Below, in pieces: positions 10,434 to 26,215 of a stretch of DNA of 64,000 bases (the stretch's first letter is position 1; every line of letters begins with the position of its first letter). A program made the position numbers and the translations under genes. The notes beneath the pieces were generated by a model that did no database searches, was not told where the DNA came from, and was given only the letters and a program-made list of their open reading frames with translations. The stretch comes from Thermodesulfobacterium sp. TA1 (GTDB taxonomy: Bacteria; Desulfobacterota; Thermodesulfobacteria; Thermodesulfobacteriales; Thermodesulfobacteriaceae), in the NCBI RefSeq assembly GCF_008630935.1, contig NZ_CP043908.1:1364001-1428000 (forward strand). Direction: 5' to 3'.

Positions 10434-10535
10434 CTCCTGCAATTTTTATGTTAAGGTTTGTTTAACACATTTTGTTTTGTATAATAAAACAAAAGCTTAT
10501 AAGTTAGAGAGGGACAGGGACTCCATTTTTGGTAG
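10434..10535 (-). repeat. Intergenic segment duplicated at 7412-7514, copy 2
   Basis: Second copy of the promoter/leader segment described at 7412-7514, here upstream of the 92-aa gene. Its outer third (GAGAGGGACAGGGACTCC) is also the first arm of the RNA hairpin predicted for the IS110 element, so the boundary between host promoter and insertion sequence lies inside or at the edge of this repeat. Confidence 0.65.
10469..10495. promoter_or_regulatory. 27-bp palindrome, second copy, possible operator
   Basis: Inverted repeat ATTTTGTTTT / AAAACAAAAG around a TATAAT-like 7-base centre, nine of ten pairs intact. On the minus strand the centre gives TATTAT, a plausible -10 for the secreted-protein cluster. 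Matches the site at 7445-7471. Confidence 0.5.
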
Positions 10536-10640
10536 GCCTTTGAGCCTCTTAAGGAGTATGTCCCTCTGTCCCTCAACACCCGATAAGTTGGTTGGGCTAC
10601 CAAAGCCCCAGCTACTCGGGAGGATGGTGTGAGGGACAAA
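10504..10640 (+). ncRNA. Candidate IS110 bridge (seek) RNA in the left end
   Basis: Immediately upstream of the transposase are two nested stem-loops. The first pairs GAGGGACAGGG/ACTCC (10507-10524) with GGAGT/CCCTCTGTCCCTC (10553-10574), enclosing an AGGC-GCCT hairpin. The second pairs CCCGA (10580-10584) with TCGGG, encloses GGGCT-ACCAA-AGCCC (10594-10609) and leaves unpaired strands TAAGTTGGTT and CAGCTAC on either side. Internal loops with two guide strands are the known layout of IS110 bridge RNAs. Fold done by eye. Confidence 0.55.
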
Positions 10641-10663
10641 AATCTTAAAAAGGAGGTAGCATC

Positions 10664-11863
10664 ATGACCCATTACATCGGTGTTGACATTTCTAAAGATA
10701 ACTTCCACTTCTGCATCCTTAACCATGAAGCTAAAACCCTCTCCTCCGGCAAACTCTCTATGTCTCTTCAAGGCTTCTCTGATTTCTTTAACCTTCTCAA
10801 AACCCTCTCTGACCCTATCGTTGTTATGGAATCCTCTGGTAGGTTCCACATCCCCCTTTACTGCTTCCTCGTTGAAAAAGATATCCAAACCTTCATCCTT
10901 AACCCTAAAATCGTCCACAGATTCTTTGAATTTATCTCCGCTAACAACCCCTCTAAATACGACACAAAAGATGCCAAAATCCTTGCACTCTTCGCTCTTA
11001 ATAACCCTGAATTCCTTAAATCCTATCCTGAAAACTCTGAACTCCGTAGTGCTTCTCGTCTTATCCAAAAACTTAAACATGAACTTGCTGAAGCTAAAAC
11101 TCAAATCAAATACGCCCTCACTGTTCTTTTCCCAGAAGCTGAAAAGCACTTTAATATTTACTCCCACTCCTTCCTTAACATACTCCTTAAATTCCCCTCT
11201 GCTAAAACCCTTAAAAAAGCTAAACCAAATGAAATTTCCGAAATTATTAAATCCTCTGTTCCTAAAGGTAAAACCCCTTCCTTTTCTCCCGATGAAGTCA
11301 TAAACCTTGCTAAAAACTCTATCGGGGTTGACAATCCTTATCTCTCTCAAACTCTTATCATCTACATCGAAAAACTCTTTTTCCTTGAGCCAAGAATAAA
11401 AAAGCTTGAAGAGATGCTTGTAGAGAAAATGGATGAAGACCAGCAAGAACAAATTAAGCTCATTTCCTCTATAAAAGGTATTTCCTCTAAACTTGCAAGT
11501 CTCTTTTTGGCTGAAATCAGAGACGTAAAAAGATTTTCTAATGCCAAAAAGCTCATAAAGTTTGCGGGCACAGACCCAGTAACAAAACAATCTGGTAAGT
11601 ATAAAGCTAAGATGAGCATATCTAAGCAAGGGTCGAGCTTTCTCAGAAATGTTCTTTTCCAGATGGCGGTAGGTGTAGTAAAATGGAATTTTTACTTCAG
11701 ATCCTATTTTATACGTAAGAAGAAAAACTTTGGCAGTTATAAGAAAGCTATGATAGCAGTTGTAAACAAACTTATAAGAGTTATCTATGCAATTTGTAGA
11801 AAAAAAACTTTCTTTAATCCTGCTTTTTCTAAGTTCCCTGTTCTGGAGGTCTCTCATGTTTAA
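10664..11863 (+). CDS. IS110-family transposase (DEDD recombinase)
   Basis: 399 aa, full length for the family. The N-terminal RuvC-like DEDD domain shows YIGVDIS (Asp8), VMESSGR, and KYDTKDAKILA. A coiled-coil linker covers about residues 145-260. The C-terminal Transposase_20 domain contains ISSIKGIS and the catalytic Ser region SISKQGSSFLRNVL. A strong ribosome site (AAGGAGGTAGC) precedes the ATG. The frame is intact, so the element may be active. Codon use is C-rich (many CTT/CTC/AAC) compared with the AT-rich genes around it, suggesting recent arrival. Long antisense and shifted frames here are shadows. Confidence 0.95.
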   Translation: MTHYIGVDISKDNFHFCILNHEAKTLSSGKLSMSLQGFSDFFNLLKTLSDPIVVMESSGRFHIPLYCFLVEKDIQTFILNPKIVHRFFEFISANNPSKYDTKDAKILALFALNNPEFLKSYPENSELRSASRLIQKLKHELAEAKTQIKYALTVLFPEAEKHFNIYSHSFLNILLKFPSAKTLKKAKPNEISEIIKSSVPKGKTPSFSPDEVINLAKNSIGVDNPYLSQTLIIYIEKLFFLEPRIKKLEEMLVEKMDEDQQEQIKLISSIKGISSKLASLFLAEIRDVKRFSNAKKLIKFAGTDPVTKQSGKYKAKMSISKQGSSFLRNVLFQMAVGVVKWNFYFRSYFIRKKKNFGSYKKAMIAVVNKLIRVIYAICRKKTFFNPAFSKFPVLEVSHV

Positions 11864-11994: not shown

Positions 11995-13062
11995 TCAATT
12001 TCCCTCGCAGATTTTTTTGCATGCTTCAATAGAATCAAAAGGTACAACATGACCCCCACAGCCGCCATGAACAAATGTATGGCAGGTTTTGTCAAAATTA
12101 GAAAAATATGCTCCTTCAAACAGACCCTTACAAGTTCCTGGTAGAGGTGGTAAGTAACATCTCTTTTTAATATCAATCTTTTTTCCTTGAGTTCTTTGAA
12201 TAAAATCACTTAGAAATATAGCGGCACTTTTATGACCTTTAAAAGTGCAAGCATCAACATCTTCTTCATTTGGAATATTGCCTTTTTCTATGAGAATCTT
12301 TATAATGTTTACGTTTTCTATATCAGCCATACAGGTAAATTTTATAATATTTTTTTGTTTTAGATTGGCTCCTTTTTCTGCAAGAATATGAAAAATATCA
12401 TCATAGCCTTTTATTATAGCAATTTTAAGAGATTCGTCATTAAACTCAATTCCTTGTTTTAAAAGAAACAAAGAAACTTCTTTATGTTTTCTCCTGAGAA
12501 ATTCATTTAAAAAATTTGCTCCGACCGATTTCTTTATATCCCAGCCCTTTTTAAGGCAAACCTCAAAAATTTCTATGATTTTTTTATAGTCTCTTTCTCC
12601 GAAAGCAAGTCCATATAGCGGGATCTCTCCTCTGTTATCTTTCAAATTAAAATCAGCACCATTTTCTATAAGAAAAATAATAAAATCTTCATTCATAAAA
12701 TTGTAAGCAATAGCATCATGGAGAGGTGTTCTGCCATCTTTATCTTTGGCGTTAATATCAGCTCCTTTTGCCAAAAGAATTTTGACCATGTTAAGGTCTC
12801 CCTCTCGGGCTGCGTAATGAAGCAAAGTCTTACCATTGTCATCACGAACGTTTACATCCTTTTGATTAAGGATGTATTTTTTCATTAATTCAATATTGTC
12901 CGAGCCTTTCTTCATTTCTGATCCTTTGTCAACGAAATATCGTTGGAATATTTCATCATTAGATCGAGAATATGAGACAGATGGGAAAAGAAAGAAGTAT
13001 CCTGCAAAAAAAGCACAAATTATTGTGATTATCAATATTCTATGCTGACCCTTTTCCATCAT
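11995..13062 (-). CDS. Secreted ankyrin-repeat protein with C-terminal Kunitz (BPTI-type) domain
   Basis: 355 aa from the ATG at 13062 (GTG at 13074 and ATG at 13059 are alternatives; GGTGG and GGGAG precede them). A signal peptide or anchor spans about residues 6-30. Ankyrin repeats follow, clearest in KTLLHYAAREGDLNMVKILL and RTPLHDAIA, then degenerate repeats to about residue 285. The last about 54 residues are a Kunitz domain: six Cys with spacings 9-16-8-13-4, exactly those of bovine BPTI, plus TCKG (P1 Lys), the FVHGGCGG core and the final CKKIC. Kunitz domains inhibit serine proteases; Lys at P1 predicts a trypsin-like target. Stop-start overlap with the FecR fragment upstream. Confidence 0.85.
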   Translation of the reverse strand: MMEKGQHRILIITIICAFFAGYFFLFPSVSYSRSNDEIFQRYFVDKGSEMKKGSDNIELMKKYILNQKDVNVRDDNGKTLLHYAAREGDLNMVKILLAKGADINAKDKDGRTPLHDAIAYNFMNEDFIIFLIENGADFNLKDNRGEIPLYGLAFGERDYKKIIEIFEVCLKKGWDIKKSVGANFLNEFLRRKHKEVSLFLLKQGIEFNDESLKIAIIKGYDDIFHILAEKGANLKQKNIIKFTCMADIENVNIIKILIEKGNIPNEEDVDACTFKGHKSAAIFLSDFIQRTQGKKIDIKKRCYLPPLPGTCKGLFEGAYFSNFDKTCHTFVHGGCGGHVVPFDSIEACKKICEGN

Positions 13063-13373
13063 TTCTCCCACCACCTTTCAAGATTTTCTATTTTTCTTAT
13101 AGTTATAGTCTCACCTAAATTTATTATAGCTTCGTAGCCTTCTTGTATCAAATAGGATTTATTTTTAATATTATCGGTAAATTCAACTTCTCCTTCTATT
13201 ACCGAAATTTTTATAATGTGCCCATCTTCTCTTTCCACAACAAATTCAGTTCCTCTGGGTGTGGTAACAGCATCAGTAGGTACTTTACTACAATTCGGCC
13301 TCCCTACAGTAATCTTACATAATTCAATTCTAAGTTTTTTTATGGATTTTTGAATTCTTCTACTGCACCCCAT
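13059..13373 (-). pseudogene. FecR-domain protein, 5' end cut off by an IS3 remnant
   Basis: 104 codons are open. From about residue 33 the sequence is FecR-like: TPRGTEFVVEREDGHIIKIS, VIEGEVEF, then SYLIQEGYEAII. The N-terminus is missing, and the present first codons (MGCSRR) are read from the terminal repeat of the IS3-type fragment beginning at 13364. So an exported FecR-type protein was truncated by insertion. FecR domains bind or sense at the cell surface. The last codon overlaps the ankyrin-Kunitz start, so the two were one operon and the downstream gene may have lost its native promoter. Confidence 0.7.
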
Positions 13374-13530
13374 TTGTCAAGACATTTTTTATGCCTTAAA
13401 GTTTTAGAGGTCATGCTACCTTTCTTATCCTTTCCTCATATTTTGCTTCAAATTCTTCTGGGCTCATGTACCCAAGCTTAAAGTGCACATAGAGCTTGTT
13501 ATAGTCCTCTTGTATCCACCTGCTATAAAA
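13364..13530 (-). mobile_element. IS3-family remnant: right end and orfB C-terminus
   Basis: Terminal repeat TGCACCCCATTTGTCAAGAC starts at 13364. A frame read 13526 to 13411 gives WIQEDYNKLYVHFKLGYMSP then EEFEAKYEERIRKVA and stop, the characteristic C-terminus of IS3-family OrfB integrases (YN..R.H..LGY.SP pattern). The rest of the element is gone; 13531-13632 shows nothing recognisable. The same terminal repeat bounds the miniature elements at 17218 and 25259. Confidence 0.8.
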
Positions 13531-13940: not shown

Positions 13941-16900
13941 TTAAGATTTTTGATTAAGCTTTTGTAACTCCCCTTCTATCTCTTTTATACGTTTCATGCA
14001 TTTTTCTATGTACTGTTTTTGGGCGGATACAGCTTTATAGTAAAGATCTAAATTCTTTTCAAACTCCTTCATCTTTGTCCAGTGAGTAAAAACCACCTTT
14101 AAATCCAGCCCTGTATTAACAAAATGGGATAAAACCTTAGCTAAATCTTTGATCTTATCCTCTATACCAGGTATAGCATTAACAGCTTTTACTATCCCCT
14201 CTGCAAGGTCTTCAAAAGTATGATCTTCAACAGAAGCCCAATCAGCAAAATCTTTTGTAGCTAAAAGATCTTTAAATCTTTTAATCTCCTTCTCTCGTTT
14301 AGGAGATTTCTTAAAATGCTTTTCTAACCGCTTAAACAAATTGTCCTGTAACAGGTCTAACATGATCTCTTTAAACCTCTCTTCGCTTCTTAAGATAGCT
14401 TTTTCAGTCTCTTCTCTCCAGCTTTCAAACTCCTTAATATTTTCTAACATTCCCTTATTAAGTTTGTCTAAGTTGATTTTTGCCAAGTAAAGTTTATGTT
14501 TAAGGTCAGCCAGTTCTTCTCCAAGCTTTGTTTCGTCAGGCAAGAGTTTTTCTTCTTTTAGTTTCTCGGCACGTTTTTCTACCTCCTCAGGTTTATCCTC
14601 TAAAGTAGAAGTTTGAGGTTTTCTTTTAAAGACTGTGGGGTCTATTACTAATGGACGATCAGGTTTTAGTTCCACTATTTTTTGTCCTACTGTTTGATAA
14701 TCTAAAGGATTTTGTCGGTAATGATTTAATAAATCGTTAAGTTTTTGTAAAGAAGTCTTTATCTTAGCCTCTTCTTCCTTGGCTTTAGCTAAAATTTGAT
14801 TATACTTTTCTGGTTCAGTATGTTTAAAACTCTCAGCTGAGCTAATCTCCTTTTTTAACCGTGCATATTCATCTAAGTTAGCTGCTACCACCTCTAATAG
14901 CTTTTTATTAAAAACTCCTTGAGACCCTACAGGTAGACTGTTTAGTTGTGGATTCACATATAAAGGCACCTTTACACCTAAAGATGAAAGGTCGATTCGT
15001 CCTATCATGGCTTGTGCGCTTTTTTCGGCAAGGTCTCTGGCTGATTCAAGGTCTCCTGCAAGGGCTGAAGCCACTGCTTTTTCTGCCAAAACTGAACTTG
15101 CTGCCAGCTGATGAATGGCATCCTTAGTTTCTATATAATTTCCCTTTATCCACGCATTAGTTGTGTCTCGATAATCAACCCCTCCACCATGATTTTCGAC
15201 AAAGAAAGAAAAACTGTCGGTTTCTTTTGAATAACAAAAGGTAGCAACTGTAGTCCCGGTTACTCCAACCAATTCTTCTAAATCAACTCTTTGGTAAGAG
15301 GGAAGAGTTACTTTTAAATTATTGGATTTTAGCCATCTGGCTAAGGCTAAGACCTTTTGGATTTCTCTCATGGTATGTAATGAAGGGAAAATCTGAGAAA
15401 ACTCTTCATATCTACTGGTTAACATCTCTGCATATTCCTTTAAAATTTCGACATACCAAGAGGGCATATCTGAACTTAAAGGCTCACTACCTATTCTTAC
15501 CTCTGACCTTGCAAAGTAAACAGCGGATTTATCAGGACTGATTTTTAATTCTACCTTTCTAGGAAAAATCCAATGACGATCAAGTCCATTTTTAATCTTT
15601 TGAAACTCCTTACCCTTACCTTTTTCATTAACCTTTTGAGTAAGGTAGACAACAAAGGGATAAAAATCTTTAAGGGATGCTGTTTCAAGATTTAAAGTGG
15701 TTACATACTTAAGCGTATAATCTGCATAAAAAAAGGCTTTAGCTATATAAGTATCTGAGGATAGATTAAAATACGTTGGTTTCACTTCGATAGAAGGAAT
15801 TTTAAACCTTTTTTTTATAAAGGAATCGCTTAAAACAAGGTTATAGAAGACGGTCTTCATCATCCATTCTCTTTGGATTTCTTCAAATTTTTGGTTGGCA
15901 AACTCGCTTAATTCTTGGTCACAATTTCCTCTTAGAGGAGCCCTTTTAATAGCTGCTTCTATTACCTCTTCTTTTACCCCCATACCTCTAAGCAAATTTT
16001 TATAAAGTAAAAACAATAAATTACGAGAAGCCTCCCAGTTGTCTATTTTTCCGGAATTAAAGTCACTTCTTATCCTTTCAAACTCATCAATAAGACCCAG
16101 CGTCTCATAAATCTCTCTAAACCAATGTCCTGCGTTTTCCATACCATAAACTTCAGAAAACTTTTGAAATCCCCAAAATTGAACCATAGCTTTTCCATAT
16201 TTTCCCTCAAGCCCTAAAGCCATAAAAATTTTATAAAAAAGCTCCTGTAAATGTAGATACTGCTCAAGTTGTTCTCTATTGTTGAACTTCCATTTTTTAG
16301 ATTTTGGCTCCCAATTAAGATAAGCCTCAAATTCTTCGGGGGTAATCGAAAATACTTTTAGCCTTGCTAAAAGTATTTGTTTTTCTGGTAAAGGTGGAGA
16401 AGAATACAAAATTTCTTTCAATATACCTGATAACCAATTAGCTCCATAATTTAGGTCTCGACCTACCCTATCCATTTCTTGATCAAAGATAGATTTGATT
16501 TCTTCTAATGCCCTGTATGTATTTTTAGTTGGGTCTAAAGAAAAAGATGGATAAGGATACCTAAGAGCCTCGTCCAAAACTTGAACGTAGGGGAGAGGTC
16601 CTGTTTTGTATTTTGGGTCGTAATGTCCTACCAAAGTAATCTCTCCTGTGTTTTTATCGATAAAAATCCCGTCTAAGACATTGATCGCAGAAGTTTTAGC
16701 TAAAAGACTGTTTTTATCAAGAAGGTCTCCCTTTTTATTTGCTTTATCTATCAATCTTTCTCTTGAAGAACCTTTAAAGGCTATTTTTGACCTATCTTGA
16801 AACGATTGAATCGTAACACCCAAGGCAGGTTTTTCCTTGGATATGTTTACAGAAAGAGATAAAATTTTGCCCTCCTTAACCACCTCCTGAGAATACGCAT

Positions 16901-17015
16901 AAACAACCAGACTTAATGCTAAAACAAAAGCTAAAACAATGTTCCTAATAGTTGAAATAGTTGATATAAATGATGAAATCTTGAAATAAAAGTCAAATTT
17001 CAAAAATCCTATCAC
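13941..17015 (-). CDS. Large (1024-aa) secreted protein of unknown function, coiled-coil C-terminus
   Basis: GTG start at 17015. Residues 1-46 are identical to those of the Spy-like protein at 25107 and contain the signal peptide (RNIVLAFVLALSLVVYAYSQ). The mature N-terminal part contains SAINVLDGIFIDKNTGEITL then GHYDPKYKTGPLPYVQVLDE and continues to about residue 650 as a mixed helical/beta region with few Cys. Residues about 700-1024 are rich in Lys and Glu with long heptad-like stretches (LKHKLYLAKINLDKLNKG, YIEKCMKRIKEIEGELQKL), probably coiled coil. I cannot place it in a known family. Periplasmic or surface location is likely; the neighbouring autotransporter shares its promoter cassette. 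Confidence 0.75.
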   Translation of the reverse strand: MIGFLKFDFYFKISSFISTISTIRNIVLAFVLALSLVVYAYSQEVVKEGKILSLSVNISKEKPALGVTIQSFQDRSKIAFKGSSRERLIDKANKKGDLLDKNSLLAKTSAINVLDGIFIDKNTGEITLVGHYDPKYKTGPLPYVQVLDEALRYPYPSFSLDPTKNTYRALEEIKSIFDQEMDRVGRDLNYGANWLSGILKEILYSSPPLPEKQILLARLKVFSITPEEFEAYLNWEPKSKKWKFNNREQLEQYLHLQELFYKIFMALGLEGKYGKAMVQFWGFQKFSEVYGMENAGHWFREIYETLGLIDEFERIRSDFNSGKIDNWEASRNLLFLLYKNLLRGMGVKEEVIEAAIKRAPLRGNCDQELSEFANQKFEEIQREWMMKTVFYNLVLSDSFIKKRFKIPSIEVKPTYFNLSSDTYIAKAFFYADYTLKYVTTLNLETASLKDFYPFVVYLTQKVNEKGKGKEFQKIKNGLDRHWIFPRKVELKISPDKSAVYFARSEVRIGSEPLSSDMPSWYVEILKEYAEMLTSRYEEFSQIFPSLHTMREIQKVLALARWLKSNNLKVTLPSYQRVDLEELVGVTGTTVATFCYSKETDSFSFFVENHGGGVDYRDTTNAWIKGNYIETKDAIHQLAASSVLAEKAVASALAGDLESARDLAEKSAQAMIGRIDLSSLGVKVPLYVNPQLNSLPVGSQGVFNKKLLEVVAANLDEYARLKKEISSAESFKHTEPEKYNQILAKAKEEEAKIKTSLQKLNDLLNHYRQNPLDYQTVGQKIVELKPDRPLVIDPTVFKRKPQTSTLEDKPEEVEKRAEKLKEEKLLPDETKLGEELADLKHKLYLAKINLDKLNKGMLENIKEFESWREETEKAILRSEERFKEIMLDLLQDNLFKRLEKHFKKSPKREKEIKRFKDLLATKDFADWASVEDHTFEDLAEGIVKAVNAIPGIEDKIKDLAKVLSHFVNTGLDLKVVFTHWTKMKEFEKNLDLYYKAVSAQKQYIEKCMKRIKEIEGELQKLNQKS

Positions 17016-17038
17016 TTTATAACCAATCCTAATTCTAT

Positions 17039-17106
17039 ATAATTAAAAGTATAATATAATTAAAAGTATAATATAATTAAAAGTATAATATAATTAAAAG
17101 TATAAT
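17039..17106. repeat. Four tandem 17-bp units overlapping the -10 region
   Basis: Unit ATAATTAAAAGTATAAT at 17039-17055, 17056-17072, 17073-17089 and 17090-17106. The paralogous cassette has only one unit (25131-25147). On the minus strand each unit carries ATTATACTTTTAATTAT and adds to the 5' leader; the unit nearest the -35 supplies part of the -10 region. Pattern typical of slipped-strand expansion. Confidence 0.9.
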
Positions 17107-17132
17107 ATACTTAACTCTTAGAATTTTGTCAA
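17104..17132 (-). promoter_or_regulatory. Promoter of the 1024-aa secreted protein
   Basis: TTGACA (plus-strand TGTCAA at 17127-17132), a 17-base spacer and TATATT (17104-17109). Transcription would start about 85 bases before the GTG start and pass through the 17-bp tandem units. Same -35, spacer and -10 as the copy at 25145-25173. Confidence 0.7.
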
Positions 17133-17217
17133 CCAAAATTTTAAGCTTTTTTTGGGAAATTAAAGAAATTATATGATATTATATTTAATTTTTCTTTATT
17201 TTTTTTAATTTTCCTAT

Positions 17218-17402
17218 TGCATCCCATTTGTTAAGACATTTTTTTATGCCCTAAAGTTGTTGAGATAAAGACTATTGCTAATTTCTCTCTGCCGTCCATT
17301 TCCTCTGTTTCATCTCACACCTCCTGTCTTAATATTTTATCCCTGCCTAACAAGAGAGTTTAACCTCTACAACTTTGGTGTGTCCAGTCCCTATGGGGTT
17401 CA
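17218..17402 (-). mobile_element. IS3-derived miniature element (MITE-like), copy 1
   Basis: 185 bases bounded by imperfect inverted repeats: TGCATCCCATTTGTTAAGAC at 17218 and, on the minus strand from 17402, TGAACCCCATAGGGACTGG. Inside, on the minus strand, is a ribosome site and the first codons of an IS3 orfA (MKQRKWTAE, from the ATG at 17313) that run at once into a stop and then the opposite end. So it is an internally deleted IS3 element. Identical copy at 25259-25443; a related terminal repeat with an orfB tail is at 13364. Confidence 0.7.
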
Positions 17403-17456
17403 GTATAAGGTTATTCAACAGCTTCATAAGCTCTCTGTAGTTACTATTTTGAAATA

Positions 17457-17862
17457 TTAAACCAATAGATACAAAATCCTCTCGGATGCCTTAGCAGGAA
17501 AGCTCACCTTTAAAGAGGCTTCCTTAATACCACTCTTAGCTACGAAAGCCTAAGGAAGCTTCTGATAGAAGAAGTACCACATGAACCACGAAGAAAAAGG
17601 GAGGTATATCGGAGACTGAGAAGGATGCCCAAAGCGGGAAACCCTAATGACCTCTGGAAATCATGTTCTGCCCAGAATTTTGACTCTGATCAAAGGAATT
17701 CTTGAAGCTGCCTTATAGGCTCATTGAGTTAAGTGCTATTTCAATAATCGTGTCTGGTAATATCATGTTGAAGGGCTACAGGTATTAAGAAAGATAAACC
17801 TCTTTAACAAAAAGAAATAGAGAACCCAGGAGATAGAAAATTAAAAAAAATTTAACGGTAAT
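17457..17862 (+). other. Gene-free stretch with a possible transposase N-terminal remnant
   Basis: About 400 bases without an intact frame between the cassette copy and the autotransporter terminator. On the plus strand 17464-17553 reads NRYKILSDALAGKLTFKEAS then LIPLLATKA and stop, which resembles the helix-turn-helix start of some transposases; further broken frames follow to about 17700. Nothing else is recognised. Low certainty; chance cannot be excluded. Confidence 0.3.
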
Positions 17863-17885
17863 AAAAAAGCCCCCAAGAGGGGGCT
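17863..17885 (-). terminator. Rho-independent terminator of the autotransporter operon
   Basis: Minus strand AGCCCCC-TCTTG-GGGGGCT followed by TTTTTTATT, 28 bases after the autotransporter stop. Strong GC stem in an AT-rich setting. Confidence 0.9.
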
Positions 17886-17912
17886 CTGTTATCAATCTTT
17901 ACCCTAAAACAA

Positions 17913-20900
17913 CTACCAATTATATCTTAGCATCATTGACCCAGAGTAGCCCGTGTAATCTCCATTAAAGTCTCCTCTTCCGGAAATCTCAAGACCGAGG
18001 TTCTTCTGAAGCCTAAATTCTCCTCCAAGCTGGACAATAAAAGTCGTTCTATTTATCTCCCTTGATAATTTCCATCTTGTTGGGTCACTTCTCATATAGT
18101 TAACCGCACTTATATCATTTTTCCCAAATGCCTGTTCCAATCTTCCATAAGCATAAAGTTTAACTGGCATTGCACCTGCCTTTGCTTCGGAAGCAAGCAT
18201 AACCCCTATCACTCCTTTCCACATATGTTTGCTATCAGGATCATAATATCTATCCCAACTTGTTACCCTGTTCCCAGCACTGTCATAAACCTTTGTCCAA
18301 AAACTTTCGGGATTGTAGTAAGTATATCTTATTCCTATCTCAGGAATTACATTTAATTTCCCTCTATAAACTTTCCCAAGAAGTATTTCCCCATGGACAC
18401 CTTTCATGGTATAACTTGCCTTCTCTTTAAGCTCCAAATTTAGTCCTGTACGTCCATTATAGTCATTTGAACTACTAAATCCATACATGTTATATCTTAA
18501 ATAGGAATCTTTCATCATTATCCACATACCTGTAATACCAAGTGAAAAGATGTCAGAGTCACCATCTTTTGCTGATCTTCTACTATAGTCATATTCAGCT
18601 CTCAAATAATTGGCATAGATACCTAAAGAAAAGTTCTTTGTAAGAAAACCTCCTAATCCGATGTTAAATCCATAAGTATTGGTATCAAAACCAAGGTCAT
18701 CGGCAGAAACATGAGTATAAAGAGGTTTAAACCACATGCCACCACGATATTCAACTCCACCAAGACTATATCCAGCTCCAACATCACTTATGCCAGCAGA
18801 CGCAAGCATCACTGGCTGATAACCTTTCACAAGAATAAAAGGCGAAGTAATAGGCAGAGAAGTAAAGATACTATCTACCATAATTGAATTAACTATAACT
18901 CCACCTATCATACTGTTAACTGATCCTAATGCTTCTTCTGGTTTGTTCAAAGCTAAATATTTAAAAATAATCTGTGCATCTTTATCAGTTATATTTGGGT
19001 CATACCATGCTACATCAATAAGTGGATTTGTATAGCCTTTCTCTAACTCGCCCCAATTACCATTTACTGTCCCATTACTTTCTATTAAATTATAAGGAGT
19101 GCCTACAACTATGTATTGAGCACTATTATTCCAAAGTCTTACAACTAAGGTTGCATTATTAAGACCAAGTGATGAACCACTTTCAACGTAAATGGGAGCT
19201 GTATTAGGTCCAGTACCAGGCGCTCCAAAAGTGATGGCAAACTTGTCTTTAAGAGTTACATTAGAGCCAGAATCTACATAAAGGGTGCGAAGCTTTTTCC
19301 CAGAAAGAGCATCTCCCCAAACAACTATTTCACCAGGGTTTGAAAGTTCAACTGTTGAATTAATAATATAAATTCCAGCTACCTTATCTACATTTCCACT
19401 TGCAGAAACTGTAATGGTTCCATTGTTTATAAGAGTTATCTCTGAATCTTTTAAATAGATTCCAAAGCTGTTTACTGTCCCACTTGAAGAGCTAGCAGAT
19501 ATATCAATGATCCCCTTATTAAGGATTGTTGAACCAGTCTGTGCTTTCTCAATATATAATCCTGTTGCCTTTGCTGACTGCTCTCCTATAGTTGAAACTT
19601 TAATCGTTCCACTACTTTCATTTAAAAGATCTTCTGTAAGAACCACTGCGTATACACCAGTTGCCTCTGTGTCCTTACCAGTTGCTATCACCTTAATGGT
19701 GCCATTATTGGTAAAGTTATTTATGGTATCTTCGTCAACATATAATCCATAAGCTTTTGCAGTCCCATTTGTCGCTGTGGCTCTCACATCTATTGTCCCT
19801 TCATTCGTAAAATTTCCCATATCATATGCATACACTCCATACACAGTTGCATTCCCACCTGTTGCAGTTGCATTTACGATTATTGATCCATTACTAGTAA
19901 ATTTGCCTATATAACCTGCATACACTCCATATGCATATGCAGTATATTCTGAATTCGCACTTCCTGTAATTGACCCGCTATTTGTTAAATTTCCTATACT
20001 TCCTGCATACACTCCATATGTTCTTACTAAACTTGTCCCACTAGCACTTCCTGTAATTGACCCGCTATTTGTTAAATTTACAATACTTCCTGTATACACT
20101 CCATATGCATCTGCATTTGTCCCATTCGCACTCCCTGTAATTGACCCGCTATTTGTTAAATCCCCTATGTTATCTGCAACCACTCCATACGCCTCTGCAT
20201 AATCTGTCCCATTCGCACTCCCTATAATTGACCCGCTATTTGTTAAATCCCCTATGCTTCCTGTATCCACTCCAGCTGCCTCTGTAGTTCCATTTGTTGA
20301 AATTGCACTCACAGTTATTAATCCAGTATTAGTGAAATTGCCTATATCCTCTGTTGTAGATACTCCAAACGCTGTTACCTCATCTACTCCCTTCGCTGTT
20401 ACTATTATGCTCCCTTCGTTTGTAAAATTGCCTATCTGACCTACATAACCTTCCTCACCACCTGCCATAACACCTATTACATTCGCACTCCCTCCATTAT
20501 TCTCCCCATAAACCTCAATCTTCCCACCTTCTAAATTCCTAAACTCTCCTATCGTCCCATTAAATACTGCTACCCCTACTGCATTAAGCTCCCCTCCATC
20601 TGCATATCCACTTACCGTTAAATTCCCATCGTTAATGAATATACCTATTTCCCCAGATTCCCCACCTTCTATTTCTTCCGGTAATCCTGCCATTACCCCT
20701 ACTACTGCTGACCATTCCCCACCAGTTGAATTGGTAAATACTGATATGTTTCCAGTATTATTGAAATATCCTATATCCTCTGACTTAACCCCTACTGCTG
20801 TCGCATTAATCGATTCTATAGATACCAATATATTCCCAGTGTTCGTAAAATTACCTACACTCTCTATCTCAACCCCTACAGGTATGTTATTATCCGCATA

Positions 20901-23900
20901 GTTTACATAGCCACCAGTTCCATTTACGTTTATATTTCCACTATTAACAAAATTAGTTGCATTTAAAGCATAAACTCCAGCAAGCATAAGTTGCCCTGAA
21001 GAATCAGTCACATTACCAAAAACATCTATACGACCTTCGTTTATAAGGTTAGTAACATTACCAACAACTACCCCACCTGCTAATACTTCTGTGCCATTTG
21101 CTAAAACTTGAATGGTACCATTATTTGTTAAATTCCCTATGCTTCCTGCATACACTCCATATGCACTTGCATTATCTGTCCCACTCGCACTTACTGTAAT
21201 TGACCCGCTATTTGTTAAATCTACTATGTTATCTGCATCCACTCCATATGCCCTTGCATAAGATCCCCCACTCGCACTTACTGTAATTGACCCGCTATTT
21301 GTTAAATCTACTATGTTATCTGCAACCACTCCATATGCACTTGCATTATCTGTCCCACTCGCACTTACTGTAATTGACCCGCTATTTGTTAAATCTACTA
21401 TGTTATCTGCATCCACTCCATATGCCCTTGCATAAGATCCCCCACTCGCACTTACTGTAATTGACCCGCTATTTGTTAAATCCCCTATGCTTCCTGTATC
21501 CACTCCAGCTGCCTCTGTAGTTCCATTTGTTGAAATTGCACTCACAGTTATTAATCCAGTATTAGTGAAATTGCCTATATCCTCTGTTGTAGATACTCCA
21601 AACGCTGTTACCTCATCTACTCCCTTCGCTGTTACTATTATGCTCCCTTCGTTTGTAAAATTGCCTATCTGACCTATATAATCTTCCTCACCACCTGCCA
21701 TAACACCTATTACATTCGCACTCCCTCCATTATTCTCCCCATAAACCTCAATCTTCCCACCTTCTAAATTCCTAAACTCTCCTATCGTCCCATTAAATAC
21801 TGCTACCCCTACTGCATTAAGCTCCCCTCCATCTGCATATCCACTTACCGTTAAATTCCCATCGTTAATGAATATACCTATTTCCCCAGATTCCCCACCT
21901 TCTATTTCTTCCGGTAATCCTGCCATTACCCCTACTACTGCTGACCATTCCCCACCAGTTGAATTGGTAAATACTGATATGTTTCCAGTATTATTGAAAT
22001 ATCCTATATCCTCTGACTTAACCCCTACTGCTGTCGCATTAATCGATTCTATAGATACCAATATATTCCCAGTGTTCGTAAAATTACCTACACTCTCTAT
22101 CTCAACCCCTACAGGTATGTTATTATCCGCATAGTTTACATAGCCACCAGTTCCATTTACGTTTATATTTCCACTATTAACAAAATTAGTTGCATTTAAA
22201 GCATAAACTCCAGCAAGCATAAGTTGCCCTGAAGAATCAGTCACATTACCAAAAACATCTATACGACCTTCGTTTATAAGGTTAGTAACATTACCAACAA
22301 CTACCCCACCTGCTAATACTTCTGTGCCATTTGCTAAAACTTGAATGGTACCATTATTTGTTAAATTCCCTATGCTTCCTGCATACACTCCATATGCACT
22401 TGCATTATCTGTCCCACTCGCACTTACTGTAATTGACCCGCTATTTGTTAAATCTACTATGTTATCTGCATCCACTCCATATGCCCTTGCATAAGATCCC
22501 CCACTCGCACTTACTGTAATTGACCCGCTATTTGTTAAATCTACTATGTTATCTGCAACCACTCCATATGCACTTGCATTATCTGTCCCACTCGCACTTA
22601 CTGTAATTGACCCGCTATTTGTTAAATCTACTATGTTATCTGCATCCACTCCATATGCCCTTGCATAAGATCCCCCACTCGCACTTACTGTAATTGACCC
22701 GCTATTTGTTAAATCTACTATGTTATCTGCATCCACTCCATATGCCCTTGCATAAGATCCCCCACTCGCACTTACTGTAATTGACCCGCTATTTGTTAAA
22801 TCCCCTATGCTTCCTGTATCCACTCCAGCTGCCTCTGTAGTTCCATTTGTTGAAATTGCACTCACAGTTATTAATCCAGTATTAGTGAAATTGCCTATAT
22901 CCTCTGTTGTAGATACTCCAAACGCTGTTACCTCATCTACTCCCTTCGCTGTTACTATTATGCTCCCTTCGTTTGTAAAATTGCCTATCTGACCTATATA
23001 ATCTTCCTCACCACCTGCCATAACACCTATTACATTCGCACTCCCTCCATTATTCTCCCCATAAACCTCAATCTTCCCACCTTCTAAATTCCTAAACTCT
23101 CCTATCGTCCCATTAAATACTGCTACCCCTACTGCATTAAGCTCCCCTCCATCTGCATATCCACTTACCGTTAAATTCCCATCGTTAATGAATATACCTA
23201 TTTCCCCAGATTCCCCACCTTCTATTTCTTCCGGTAATCCTGCCATTACCCCTACTACTGCTGACCATTCCCCACCAGTTGAATTGGTAAATACTGATAT
23301 GTTTCCAGTATTATTGAAATATCCTATATCCTCTGACTTAACCCCTACTGCTGTCGCATTAATCGATTCTATAGATACCAATATATTCCCAGTGTTCGTA
23401 AAATTACCTACACTCTCTATCTCAACCCCTACAGGTATGTTATTATCCGCATAGTTTACATAGCCACCAGTTCCATTTACGTTTATATTTCCACTATTAA
23501 CAAAATTAGTTGCATTTAAAGCATAAACTCCAGCAAGCATAAGTTGCCCTGAAGAATCAGTCACATTACCAAAAACATCTATACGACCTTCGTTTATAAG
23601 GTTAGTAACATTACCAACAACTACCCCACCTGCTAATACTTCTGTGCCATTTGCTAAAACTTGAATGGTACCATTATTTGTTAAATTCCCTATGCTTCCT
23701 GCATACACTCCATATGCACTTGCATTATCTGTCCCACTCGCACTTACTGTAATTGACCCGCTATTTGTTAAATCTACTATGTTATCTGCATCCACTCCAT
23801 ATGCCCTTGCATAAGATCCCCCACTCGCACTTACTGTAATTGACCCGCTATTTGTTAAATCTACTATGTTATCTGCAACCACTCCATATGCACTTGCATT

Positions 23901-24629
23901 ATCTGTCCCACTCGCACTTACTGTAATTGACCCGCTATTTGTTAAATCTACTATGTTATCTGCATCCACTCCATATGCCCTTGCATAAGATCCCCCACTC
24001 GCACTTACTGTAATTGACCCGCTATTTGTTAAATCTACTATGTTATCTGCATCCACTCCATATGCCCTTGCATAAGATCCCCCACTCGCACTTACTGTAA
24101 TTGACCCGCTATTTGTTAAATCCCCTATGCTTCCTGTATCCACTCCAGCTGCATATACATAAGATCCCCCAACCCCACCTGCTAATACTTGAATGGTACC
24201 ATTCTCAGTTATAGTTAAATTACCAATCGGCCTTACCTGAGATCCTTCTTCAATAGCACCATTTGCAAAAATACCTATGGTTTTATTACCTGCAGTTGAG
24301 TTTGTCTGTGTAACTTCAAGCGTTGCATTAATGGTTAAATCAGAAAATATATTACTTGTATCATTATCTACAAATATCCCAAAAGTATTAGCCCCTGTGT
24401 TATTGATTATGTTAAGATCCTCCTCCAACGTATAGGAACTATTTGACCCATTCAAATAAACTCCTATCTCCTGCCCAACTGTCATAGAACCACTCGCTCC
24501 TAAAATCAAAACAATAAACAACCCCAATACCAACCAATCTAAATACCACTTAAACCTCTTATCACACACCTCCTTCCCCCCTACTCTTTGTCCAAAATTT
24601 TCTTTCCTATTCTTATTCTCTTTGTCCAT
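17913..24629 (-). CDS. Giant repeat-built autotransporter (type Va) adhesin-like protein
   Basis: 2238 aa from the ATG at 24629 (AGGAGG 7 bases upstream; a GTG directly before is less likely). An extended signal peptide covers about residues 1-54 (WLVLGLFIVLILGASGS). The passenger, to about residue 1950, is beta-helix-like with hundreds of short NLTNSGSITVSASG-type strands. The last about 270 residues form the outer-membrane beta-barrel, starting GGMWFKPLYTHVSADDLGFD and ending MMLRYNW with an aromatic last residue. The passenger contains three near-identical 411-440-residue blocks, each with four or five 29-residue units. The barrel exports the passenger to the surface; adhesion or autoaggregation is the usual role, inferred here. 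Two bases downstream of the Spy-like gene: same operon. Confidence 0.93.
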   Translation of the reverse strand: MDKENKNRKENFGQRVGGKEVCDKRFKWYLDWLVLGLFIVLILGASGSMTVGQEIGVYLNGSNSSYTLEEDLNIINNTGANTFGIFVDNDTSNIFSDLTINATLEVTQTNSTAGNKTIGIFANGAIEEGSQVRPIGNLTITENGTIQVLAGGVGGSYVYAAGVDTGSIGDLTNSGSITVSASGGSYARAYGVDADNIVDLTNSGSITVSASGGSYARAYGVDADNIVDLTNSGSITVSASGTDNASAYGVVADNIVDLTNSGSITVSASGGSYARAYGVDADNIVDLTNSGSITVSASGTDNASAYGVYAGSIGNLTNNGTIQVLANGTEVLAGGVVVGNVTNLINEGRIDVFGNVTDSSGQLMLAGVYALNATNFVNSGNINVNGTGGYVNYADNNIPVGVEIESVGNFTNTGNILVSIESINATAVGVKSEDIGYFNNTGNISVFTNSTGGEWSAVVGVMAGLPEEIEGGESGEIGIFINDGNLTVSGYADGGELNAVGVAVFNGTIGEFRNLEGGKIEVYGENNGGSANVIGVMAGGEEDYIGQIGNFTNEGSIIVTAKGVDEVTAFGVSTTEDIGNFTNTGLITVSAISTNGTTEAAGVDTGSIGDLTNSGSITVSASGGSYARAYGVDADNIVDLTNSGSITVSASGGSYARAYGVDADNIVDLTNSGSITVSASGTDNASAYGVVADNIVDLTNSGSITVSASGGSYARAYGVDADNIVDLTNSGSITVSASGTDNASAYGVYAGSIGNLTNNGTIQVLANGTEVLAGGVVVGNVTNLINEGRIDVFGNVTDSSGQLMLAGVYALNATNFVNSGNINVNGTGGYVNYADNNIPVGVEIESVGNFTNTGNILVSIESINATAVGVKSEDIGYFNNTGNISVFTNSTGGEWSAVVGVMAGLPEEIEGGESGEIGIFINDGNLTVSGYADGGELNAVGVAVFNGTIGEFRNLEGGKIEVYGENNGGSANVIGVMAGGEEDYIGQIGNFTNEGSIIVTAKGVDEVTAFGVSTTEDIGNFTNTGLITVSAISTNGTTEAAGVDTGSIGDLTNSGSITVSASGGSYARAYGVDADNIVDLTNSGSITVSASGTDNASAYGVVADNIVDLTNSGSITVSASGGSYARAYGVDADNIVDLTNSGSITVSASGTDNASAYGVYAGSIGNLTNNGTIQVLANGTEVLAGGVVVGNVTNLINEGRIDVFGNVTDSSGQLMLAGVYALNATNFVNSGNINVNGTGGYVNYADNNIPVGVEIESVGNFTNTGNILVSIESINATAVGVKSEDIGYFNNTGNISVFTNSTGGEWSAVVGVMAGLPEEIEGGESGEIGIFINDGNLTVSGYADGGELNAVGVAVFNGTIGEFRNLEGGKIEVYGENNGGSANVIGVMAGGEEGYVGQIGNFTNEGSIIVTAKGVDEVTAFGVSTTEDIGNFTNTGLITVSAISTNGTTEAAGVDTGSIGDLTNSGSIIGSANGTDYAEAYGVVADNIGDLTNSGSITGSANGTNADAYGVYTGSIVNLTNSGSITGSASGTSLVRTYGVYAGSIGNLTNSGSITGSANSEYTAYAYGVYAGYIGKFTSNGSIIVNATATGGNATVYGVYAYDMGNFTNEGTIDVRATATNGTAKAYGLYVDEDTINNFTNNGTIKVIATGKDTEATGVYAVVLTEDLLNESSGTIKVSTIGEQSAKATGLYIEKAQTGSTILNKGIIDISASSSSGTVNSFGIYLKDSEITLINNGTITVSASGNVDKVAGIYIINSTVELSNPGEIVVWGDALSGKKLRTLYVDSGSNVTLKDKFAITFGAPGTGPNTAPIYVESGSSLGLNNATLVVRLWNNSAQYIVVGTPYNLIESNGTVNGNWGELEKGYTNPLIDVAWYDPNITDKDAQIIFKYLALNKPEEALGSVNSMIGGVIVNSIMVDSIFTSLPITSPFILVKGYQPVMLASAGISDVGAGYSLGGVEYRGGMWFKPLYTHVSADDLGFDTNTYGFNIGLGGFLTKNFSLGIYANYLRAEYDYSRRSAKDGDSDIFSLGITGMWIMMKDSYLRYNMYGFSSSNDYNGRTGLNLELKEKASYTMKGVHGEILLGKVYRGKLNVIPEIGIRYTYYNPESFWTKVYDSAGNRVTSWDRYYDPDSKHMWKGVIGVMLASEAKAGAMPVKLYAYGRLEQAFGKNDISAVNYMRSDPTRWKLSREINRTTFIVQLGGEFRLQKNLGLEISGRGDFNGDYTGYSGSMMLRYNW
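20248..24120 (-). repeat. Three tandem ~1.3-kb blocks with nested 87-bp units inside the autotransporter gene
   Basis: Block borders (TCCCCTATGCTTCCTGTATC) recur at 20248, 21481, 22801 and 24121. Blocks are therefore 1233, 1320 and 1320 bases; the 87-base difference is exactly one 29-codon unit. Each block starts (in coding direction) with five, five or four 29-residue units alternating GGSYARAYGVDADNIVDLTN and GTDNASAYGV versions, followed by about 295 residues of non-tandem strands. Blocks 1 and 2 look nearly identical at the DNA level; block 3 has a few changes (for example EGYVGQIG for EDYIGQIG). A diverged fourth start follows. Confidence 0.95.
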
Positions 24630-24633
24630 CACT

Positions 24634-25107
24634 TTACCTCCTTCCTATTCTAATCTCCCTCCACTTCTTCCTCTGCTCCTCGTTTAACACCCCGTCTATC
24701 TTCTTCCCTGTCTCAAGCTCCTCTGCTATCAGCTCCCCACGAAGACAATGTATCTCCTTGACAAGCTTCTTTATTTCTTTGATGTCCCAATCACTGTTTA
24801 ACATCTCCTTAAACCTTGCCTCCTTCTCCCTAATCTTGCTTGACAACTCTTGCTCCTTTTTAAAAAATCCCTGCAAATACTTCTCTATCTCCTTAACCTG
24901 CTTCTCATTAAGCTTAAGCTCCTCCTTAAAATCAAGAATAGTCTTTCTTGCTTGAGGAACACCTCCCTTAACCACCTCCTGAGAATACGCATAAACAACC
25001 AGACTTAATGCTAAAACAAAAGCTAAAACAATGTTCCTAATAGTTGAAATAGTTGATATAAATGATGAAATCTTGAAATAAAAGTCAAATTTCAAAAATC
25101 CTATCAC
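24634..25107 (-). CDS. Spy/CpxP-like periplasmic protein (LTXXQ-type)
   Basis: 157 aa, GTG start. The first 46 residues are the same signal-peptide cassette as the 1024-aa protein. The mature part is all-helical with LKLNEKQVKEIEKYLQGFF near its start and VLNEEQRKKWREI near its end, the two LTxxQ-type motifs of the Spy/CpxP/heavy-metal-resistance family. Such proteins are periplasmic chaperones or stress sensors. Standing directly before a giant autotransporter, it may protect the unfolded passenger in the periplasm; that role is an inference. Confidence 0.8.
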   Translation of the reverse strand: MIGFLKFDFYFKISSFISTISTIRNIVLAFVLALSLVVYAYSQEVVKGGVPQARKTILDFKEELKLNEKQVKEIEKYLQGFFKKEQELSSKIREKEARFKEMLNSDWDIKEIKKLVKEIHCLRGELIAEELETGKKIDGVLNEEQRKKWREIRIGRR

Positions 25108-25144
25108 TTTATAACCAATCCTAATTCTATATAATTAAAAGTAT

Positions 25145-25173
25145 AATATAATTAACTCTTAGAATTTTGTCAA
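25145..25173 (-). promoter_or_regulatory. Promoter of the Spy-like/autotransporter operon
   Basis: TTGACA (plus-strand TGTCAA at 25168-25173), 17-base spacer, TATATT (25145-25150). One 17-bp unit (25131-25147) overlaps the -10, compared with four in the sister cassette. Confidence 0.7.
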
Positions 25174-25258
25174 CCAAAATTTTAAGCTTTTTTTGGGAAA
25201 TTAAAGAAATTATATGATATTATATTTAATTTTTCTTTATTTTTTTTAATTTTCCTAT

Positions 25259-25443
25259 TGCATCCCATTTGTTAAGACATTTTTTTATACCCTAAAGTTG
25301 TTGAGATAAAGACTATTGCTAATTTCTCTCTGCCGTCCATTTCCTCTGTTTCATCTCACACCTCCTGTCTTAATATTTTATCCCTGCCTAACAAGAGAGT
25401 TTAACCTCTACAACTTTGGTGTGTCCAGTCCCTATGGGGTTCA
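25259..25443 (-). mobile_element. IS3-derived miniature element, copy 2
   Basis: Same 185-base element as at 17218-17402, with the same inverted ends (TGCATCCC... and, on the minus strand, TGAACCCC...). It was carried along in the cassette duplication rather than inserted twice, since the flanks match too. Confidence 0.7.
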
Positions 25444-25495
25444 GTATAAGGTTATTCAACAGCTTCATAAGCTCTCTGTAGTTACTATTTTGAAA

Positions 25496-26100
25496 GGTGA
25501 TTCCTCATTTTATTCCACCTAAACATAAATACACCATTTCATCTAAGTTATCTCTACTATTATACCTGAATTCAAGTTCTTTCAAGTAATACACAAAATT
25601 CTCCCTGCTTACTCCATGAAACTTAAGAAGTCTCTCTTTGGCATAACTCCAAAATCCTTCTATCCCATTTATATATACCTTCCCATTTGCAGACCTTATA
25701 CTCTTGTCTACTCTCTCGTGTCTAAAACCATACATCACAAGTCCGTCATAGCTCCTAAATTTGTCTGTGTAAATTAAACTCCCCCTCTTTACCTTCTTTA
25801 TCGTCTCCTTTAACAGAGCCTCACAAGATACATCCTTAACTACTTCTACTTTTACTTTTCCTTGCCTTTCAAGAATTCCAAATACTGGTATCTTACCTTC
25901 TGCTCCCATCCCTCTCTTCTTCCCTCCAAATTTTGTTTCCACAAAAGGGACAACAAGTAAAGGTTTTAAGCACACCTTTAGCTCTTAAGAATTCTTCTGC
26001 CTTTTCTTCAGAGGATGCTATTTCTACGAGCTCTGCTAAGTTCATAGTTCCCACCTCCCGAATAAATTATAACAGAGGTGGAATATTTTGAGCAATCACC
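25496..26100 (-). mobile_element. IS1595-family (ISXO2-like) element, internally deleted
   Basis: Inverted ends: GGTGATTCCTCATTTTATTC at 25496 and, on the minus strand from 26100, GGTGATTGCTCAAAATATTC, both followed by CACCT. Between them is a shortened transposase gene. About 605 bases in all, against roughly 1 kb for intact relatives. No flanking target duplication is visible. Confidence 0.85.
25505..26045 (-). pseudogene. IS1595-family transposase, deleted and frameshifted
   Basis: The N-terminus is read from an ATG at 26045: MNLAELVEIASSEEKAEEFL, then RAKGVLKTFTCCPFCG, the zinc-ribbon start of ISXO2-type transposases. The frame then shifts near 25960 and resumes at VETKFGGKKRGMGAEGKIPV, the first DDE block, and continues to the C-terminus (YTDKFRSYDGL, VYINGIEGFWSYAKERL, NSRD). 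About 100 residues between the zinc ribbon and the DDE block are missing. Not functional. Confidence 0.8.
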
Positions 26101-26104
26101 AAAG

Positions 26105-26215
26105 ATAAATAGTTTAACGCTGTTTGTATTTTTACAAAAATAGGGTATATTTAAAGAAATTGCTTGGGGGTGGAGTAACCCTTCCTCAGGCTTAAAAATA
26201 CAAAAAGGAGGTTGA
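26105..26215 (+). promoter_or_regulatory. rpsO leader, possible S15 autoregulatory region
   Basis: About 110 bases between the IS1595 end and rpsO. It contains a TTTGTA-ATTTTT-type hairpin with ACAAA near 26130 and a GGGT...ACCC pairing (26170-26185). S15 is known to repress its own mRNA through varied leader structures; here only hairpin potential is seen. No convincing -35/-10 pair was found. Confidence 0.3.

Follow-up and report, generated by a model that had tools for sequence, protein, structure and literature searches.

Background

In wrinkly spreaders of Pseudomonas fluorescens, rearrangements fuse a gene in frame to an upstream gene, which provides a new promoter and N-terminus, and two of these fusions showed 23- and 219-fold increases in transcription (PMC4395868). 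Across bacteria, fragments of distant genes have been joined into novel genes by deletion (PMC12803068). In Schistosoma japonicum, a core promoter and signal sequence are shared by a family with 27 UniGene entries and stand before different proteins, an arrangement ascribed to recombination between repetitive elements (PMC3434034). Conserved 5' regions and signal peptides ahead of different surface proteins are also found in the mycoplasma vpma, vsp and vsa systems; these loci rearrange by site-specific inversion through a recombinase, which in M. agalactiae is Xer1 (PMC2268961).

The locus described here lies in a 64,000-nucleotide stretch of the genome of Thermodesulfobacterium sp. TA1 (the window, whose coordinates are used unless another locus is named). 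Very probably, the 5' end of a native operon encoding a Spy-like protein and an autotransporter was duplicated here, and one copy became joined, in frame, to a shortened gene from a PDZ-protein family. As in the wrinkly spreaders, a gene would have acquired promoter and N-terminus together; there, however, the deletion uses up the donor, whereas at this locus the donor operon has been retained, and the recipient received a signal peptide in place of one it already had. The fusions born of deletion resemble ours in joining distant fragments, but a duplication would also be needed here because the donor survives intact. The schistosome family has the same arrangement in a eukaryote with 27 entries, as against two genes in a bacterium, and in place of the recombinase-driven inversion of the mycoplasmas this locus has direct repeats, two copies and no recombinase seen among the ORFs scanned. 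The locus would work as the experimentally evolved gene fusions that capture a promoter do, except that here a duplicated 5' end would have spared the donor.

The repeat pair and the genes it precedes

Two copies of the repeat lie on the same strand, copy 1 with 583 bp and copy 2 with 530 bp in the alignment (Table 1). An earlier note on this DNA had recognized the pair and its orientation correctly, giving 531 bp for the second copy. The sole differences between the copies are one substitution and a 51-bp gap, the latter representing three additional 17-bp units (AATTAAAAGTATAATAT) in copy 1; when these units are left aside the copies are 99.8% identical. The length of the match rules out chance as its cause. 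Read along the minus strand, the repeat runs through the tip of an insertion sequence (IS), an IS3-family remnant, a promoter-like site, the start codon and about 46 codons. The coding sequences diverge directly past this leader, where YSQEVVK is followed by EGKILS in the 1024-aa ORF and by GGVPQA in the 157-aa ORF. The match through promoter, leader and start, with its abrupt end, had been noticed before, and the alignment agrees. No further full-length copy was found in the 1,829,881-bp genome, nor any Rfam match within the repeat.

Table 1. Features of the repeat locus and its surroundings in the window
Feature	Position	Strand	Basis
1024-aa fusion gene: spy leader and body of a PDZ-family protein, without the native signal peptide and without most of the PDZ domain	13941..17015	-	Orthologs P0004, P0005, L011, L012
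Repeat copy 1: IS tip, IS3-family remnant, promoter, four 17-bp units, start codon, leader of about 46 codons	16874..17456	-	Alignment
Lineage-specific, IS-littered insertion that separates rpsO from the body of the PDZ-protein gene	16874..26121	.	Bounds are where homology is lost
Tandem AT-rich 17-bp units between promoter and start codon (four in copy 1, one in copy 2)	17040..17108	.	
Promoter-like site TTGACA-17-TATATT, copy 1	17104..17132	-	Upstream element conserved in T. geofontis
IS3-family remnant, internally deleted so that its left end, with the transposase start, adjoins its right end (like 13331-13409); copy 1	17215..17407	-	
Remnant of another IS, HTH_28/29-type transposase; its tip is the upstream end of the repeat	17437..17638	+	Longer copies at 421, 827 and 833 kb
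Terminator-like hairpin 3' of the autotransporter gene	17866..17887	-	
2239-aa repeat-rich autotransporter, encoded next in the spy operon and carrying a separate signal sequence	17913..24632	-	Pfam Autotransporter beta-domain; translation
157-aa Spy/LTXXQ-like periplasmic protein, leader donor	24634..25107	-	Pfam LTXXQ, E 7.7e-5
Repeat copy 2, with one 17-bp unit; native leader and promoter of the spy-autotransporter operon	24966..25495	-	Alignment; relatedness to T. geofontis spy genes
Promoter-like site TTGACA-17-TATATT, copy 2	25145..25173	-	
IS3-family remnant of identical type, copy 2	25256..25448	-	Alignment
Truncated IS1595-family (ISXO2-like) transposase abutting the tip of copy 2	25505..25975	-	Pfam DDE_Tnp_IS1595, E 3e-26

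The same note took the repeats to head two giant secreted proteins. The sequence does not bear this out: copy 1 heads the 1024-aa ORF, but copy 2 heads the ORF of 157 aa, and the 2239-aa ORF behind it is a separate gene. That one promoter and signal peptide precede two unrelated proteins was confirmed: the mature parts are non-homologous, and because the two proteins match over the leader only, the leader is not simply part of one family with homologous mature regions.

The 1024-aa ORF is free of stops over its 1024 codons and in frame across the junction; its start is uncertain, being either the GTG at 17015 or a TTG four codons further. The protein has no Pfam domain above cut-off, and its predicted structure (mean pLDDT 48) is too low in confidence for use. 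Searches of genome contigs with this protein and with the Spy alignment gave no confirmed relatives.

The small, periplasmic-chaperone-like protein of 157 aa scores 23.8 bits against Pfam LTXXQ, just below the curated cut-off of 24.3, whereas relatives, those in T. geofontis among them, lie above it (27.0, 32.3 and 24.6 bits). In this it resembles the Spy/CpxP-type periplasmic proteins; unlike them, it is encoded in an operon with a large autotransporter, and its Spy function is putative. The 2239-aa ORF begins with an ATG at about 24629, has a Shine-Dalgarno sequence overlapping the spy stop codon and a hydrophobic leader of its own, and ends in an autotransporter beta-domain (PF03797, 86 bits against a cut-off of 26, E 4e-24). 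The passenger part of the gene includes several modules, each about 1.2-1.3 kb long, nearly identical to one another and carrying 87-bp subrepeats, and the module number is likely to be variable.

Insertion sequence remnants

The left end of the IS3-family remnant recurs at 138.3 kb (L004) and 680.8 kb (L003) of the genome, and the right end resembles window positions 13331-13460 and L006. The family was assigned from an HTH_Tnp_1 Pfam match on the left-end reading frame at L003 and from the ends as read by eye. Since the remnant is common to both copies and absent from the T. geofontis promoters, it is older than the duplication. A composite transposon was considered and rejected, as the flanks are remnants of different IS families with no full IS at either end. 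Among the ORFs scanned near the repeat, a subset of those in the window, the genes for DNA rearrangement were all transposases or pieces of transposases, with no site-specific recombinase. Elsewhere in the window, positions 10664-11863 (plus strand) hold an IS110-family transposase ORF, overlapped by an ORF on the opposite strand (10451-11857) that has no Pfam match.

The recipient gene in related genomes

Orthologs of the 1024-aa protein were found in four genomes of the same genus (T. geofontis OPF15, G013, G007 and G001), with 63-72% identity. In all four the N-terminus differs from that of the 1024-aa protein and carries another signal peptide; in both orthologs scanned, a PDZ domain that scores above the Pfam cut-off comes next. 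About 95 N-terminal residues, comprising the signal peptide and most of the PDZ domain, have thus been exchanged for the 46-codon leader, and among the genomes compared this is seen here only. A search of this genome for the lost N-terminus (97 residues) found it nowhere else, a weak result as the search had no positive control. In G013 the ortholog adjoins rpsO and rpoC with no insertion between (rpsO was named by eye from the sequence, and rpoC by Pfam on the window copy). The window loses homology to G013 at 26122, a position shortly upstream of rpsO, and is homologous to T. geofontis again from 16879, no more than 6 bp from the end of the repeat at 16874. The coincidence of the junction with the repeat end, together with an N-terminus replaced here only, argues that a duplicated 5' end has been fused to a truncated gene.

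Between species the orthologs are 70-77% identical in DNA, compared with 99.8% between the repeat copies, which dates the duplication, or a conversion that came after it, to the recent past. The ratio of dN to dS between the 1024-aa gene and its T. geofontis ortholog is low (0.17/0.98), and mostly reflects history from before the fusion; the fused gene may be young and decaying.

Two neighboring genes of other kinds were observed in passing. The 359-aa ORF at window positions 11995-13074 (minus strand) combines ankyrin repeats with a Kunitz/BPTI domain at its C-terminus (Pfam 40.4 bits against a cut-off of 21); among solved structures, the chains nearest to this domain are tissue factor pathway inhibitor and further inhibitors, all from animals. 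A Kunitz domain is unusual in a thermophilic bacterium. In T. geofontis, a Serpin gene (Pfam 430 bits; L024, 1060-2292, minus strand) lies near the PDZ-protein ortholog, so that in both species a protease-inhibitor domain typical of eukaryotes is found near the PDZ-family gene.

The donor operon and its relatives in T. geofontis

T. geofontis has two spy genes, each preceding an autotransporter gene, with a leader related to that of the window spy gene (46% amino acid identity) and a conserved promoter element. This kinship, combined with the different native N-terminus of the recipient, identifies the spy operon as the donor and the PDZ gene as the recipient.

Identity between the two T. geofontis operons (L022 and L023) is 90-97% in a first block, which extends from the promoter to about codon 65, and in a second block formed by the end portion of the autotransporter gene and its terminator; between these blocks it is mostly 30-70%. 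It is about 90% for the promoter-leaders but about 39% for the remainder of the Spy proteins, and the change comes abruptly, at a boundary across which third-position identity at unchanged residues falls from 90% to 54% (Fisher p about 1e-4). Past the leader, the window Spy protein groups with that of L022 (74% against 44% amino acid identity), yet the two T. geofontis leaders are nearest each other (88%), which is a mark of recombination. The promoter-leader segment has therefore been homogenised between the two T. geofontis operons, independently of the event in the window. A partial copy of the promoter region also lies 3' of the autotransporter gene of the first spy operon (L022) and ends just before the TTGACA box. 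Homogenisation and partial promoter copy together indicate that the spy-autotransporter locus is prone to duplication in two species.

The boundary between autotransporter terminator and following promoter copy in T. geofontis has the sequence AAATTAGC[C/T]TAAATATCAAC (L022 13788-13814 and L023 5570-5596), with no further occurrence in the genus genomes searched. An FtsK-like gene is found close to the second operon. A dif/Xer-type site at the unit boundary (AAATTAGCCTAAATATCAAC) was discarded as a candidate, being present only in T. geofontis, at two places, and absent from the window.

Origin of the fusion gene

The starting unit would have consisted of the IS tip, the IS3 remnant, promoter, leader, spy and autotransporter genes. 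Most probably this unit was duplicated in tandem, perhaps via recombination between IS copies, after which an in-frame deletion would have extended from just past the second leader to about codon 95 of the recipient, taking away the promoter and signal peptide of that gene along with the greater part of its PDZ domain. The donor operon would remain intact because its 5' end had been duplicated. The 1024-aa product would be transcribed from the spy-type promoter and exported by the signal peptide, without a PDZ domain, and dedicated recombination machinery would not be required. The comparisons above establish the identity of the repeats, the donor, the recipient, the in-frame junction and the recent relative age of the event. 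Duplication followed by deletion is only the more probable order, since a single recombination event or gene conversion would leave an identical repeat.

Such a single step, in which ectopic recombination or gene conversion put the spy 5' end on the PDZ gene with no earlier tandem duplication, would have the same donor, recipient and product and differ in path alone. The junction lies at a short stretch partly common to spy and the recipient orthologs (around GTTAAGG), as this path would allow, and the end sequence would be identical by either path. Taken alone, however, it leaves unexplained why the spy-autotransporter unit stands directly upstream, why the upstream IS tip is shared, and why the recipient lost about 95 codons along with its promoter region, and we regard it as a possible but somewhat unlikely route.

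The evidence from T. geofontis also bears on a broader reading, which we consider improbable, in which the spy-autotransporter locus acts as a donor again and again. The segment at its junction (autotransporter 3' end, terminator, promoter and leader) would be repeatedly duplicated and homogenised, setting new cores under one promoter and export signal, as a recombination-driven cassette without a recombinase of its own. If this is true, the new cores would be other Spy/autotransporter pairs, or a foreign gene as in the window.

As the earlier note observed, the direct repeats flank an 8-kb segment, which in principle could be deleted by homologous recombination. It is quite unlikely that this constitutes a phase-variable switch, in which such recombination drops the spy-autotransporter segment from some cells and slippage of the 17-bp units tunes expression. 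Repeats of 530-583 bp in one orientation, 8 kb apart, and four units as against one between promoter and start would suit a switch, but loss between direct repeats is irreversible in cis and no alternative form was seen in the one genome of the species.

The earlier note proposed a cassette mechanism, and a dedicated system resembling mycoplasma vpma/vsa could place one promoter-leader before various exported proteins. The leader common to two unrelated proteins in the window, and the abrupt change past the T. geofontis promoter-leaders, might be read in this way. Yet we found no sign of such a mechanism, which we judge very unlikely: the genome has only two copies, these are direct repeats, the nearby ORFs scanned include no recombinase, no conserved recombination site was seen, and the T. 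geofontis boundary sequence is not found in the other genus genomes. The expectation that relatives would carry the same leader before other proteins was not borne out, as 28 of 30 family genomes had no match and the T. geofontis matches occur only before spy. With the leader profile limited to four genes in these 30 genomes (two in the window, two spy genes in T. geofontis), a leader-shuffling system is unsupported. A faint residue of the cassette idea persists in the promoter-leader segment that was copied independently between the two T. geofontis operons.

That the second copy is an assembly artefact of misjoined repeats is hardly credible even in a locus so rich in near-identical repeats, since the copies can be told apart (by one substitution and 51 bp), both junctions are in frame in a genome that forms one contig, and the N-terminus native to the recipient turned up nowhere else in it.

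Duplication of the spy-autotransporter 5' end and its fusion to the truncated PDZ-family gene thus remains the preferred explanation, and comparative genomics points to a one-off fusion. For understanding how bacteria make new genes, natural fusions are of value when they are recent and when donor and pre-fusion recipient can both be recognized. In this case the part gained is a promoter and an export signal, and the part lost is a PDZ domain. The involvement of one locus in two species suggests a habit that can be tested.
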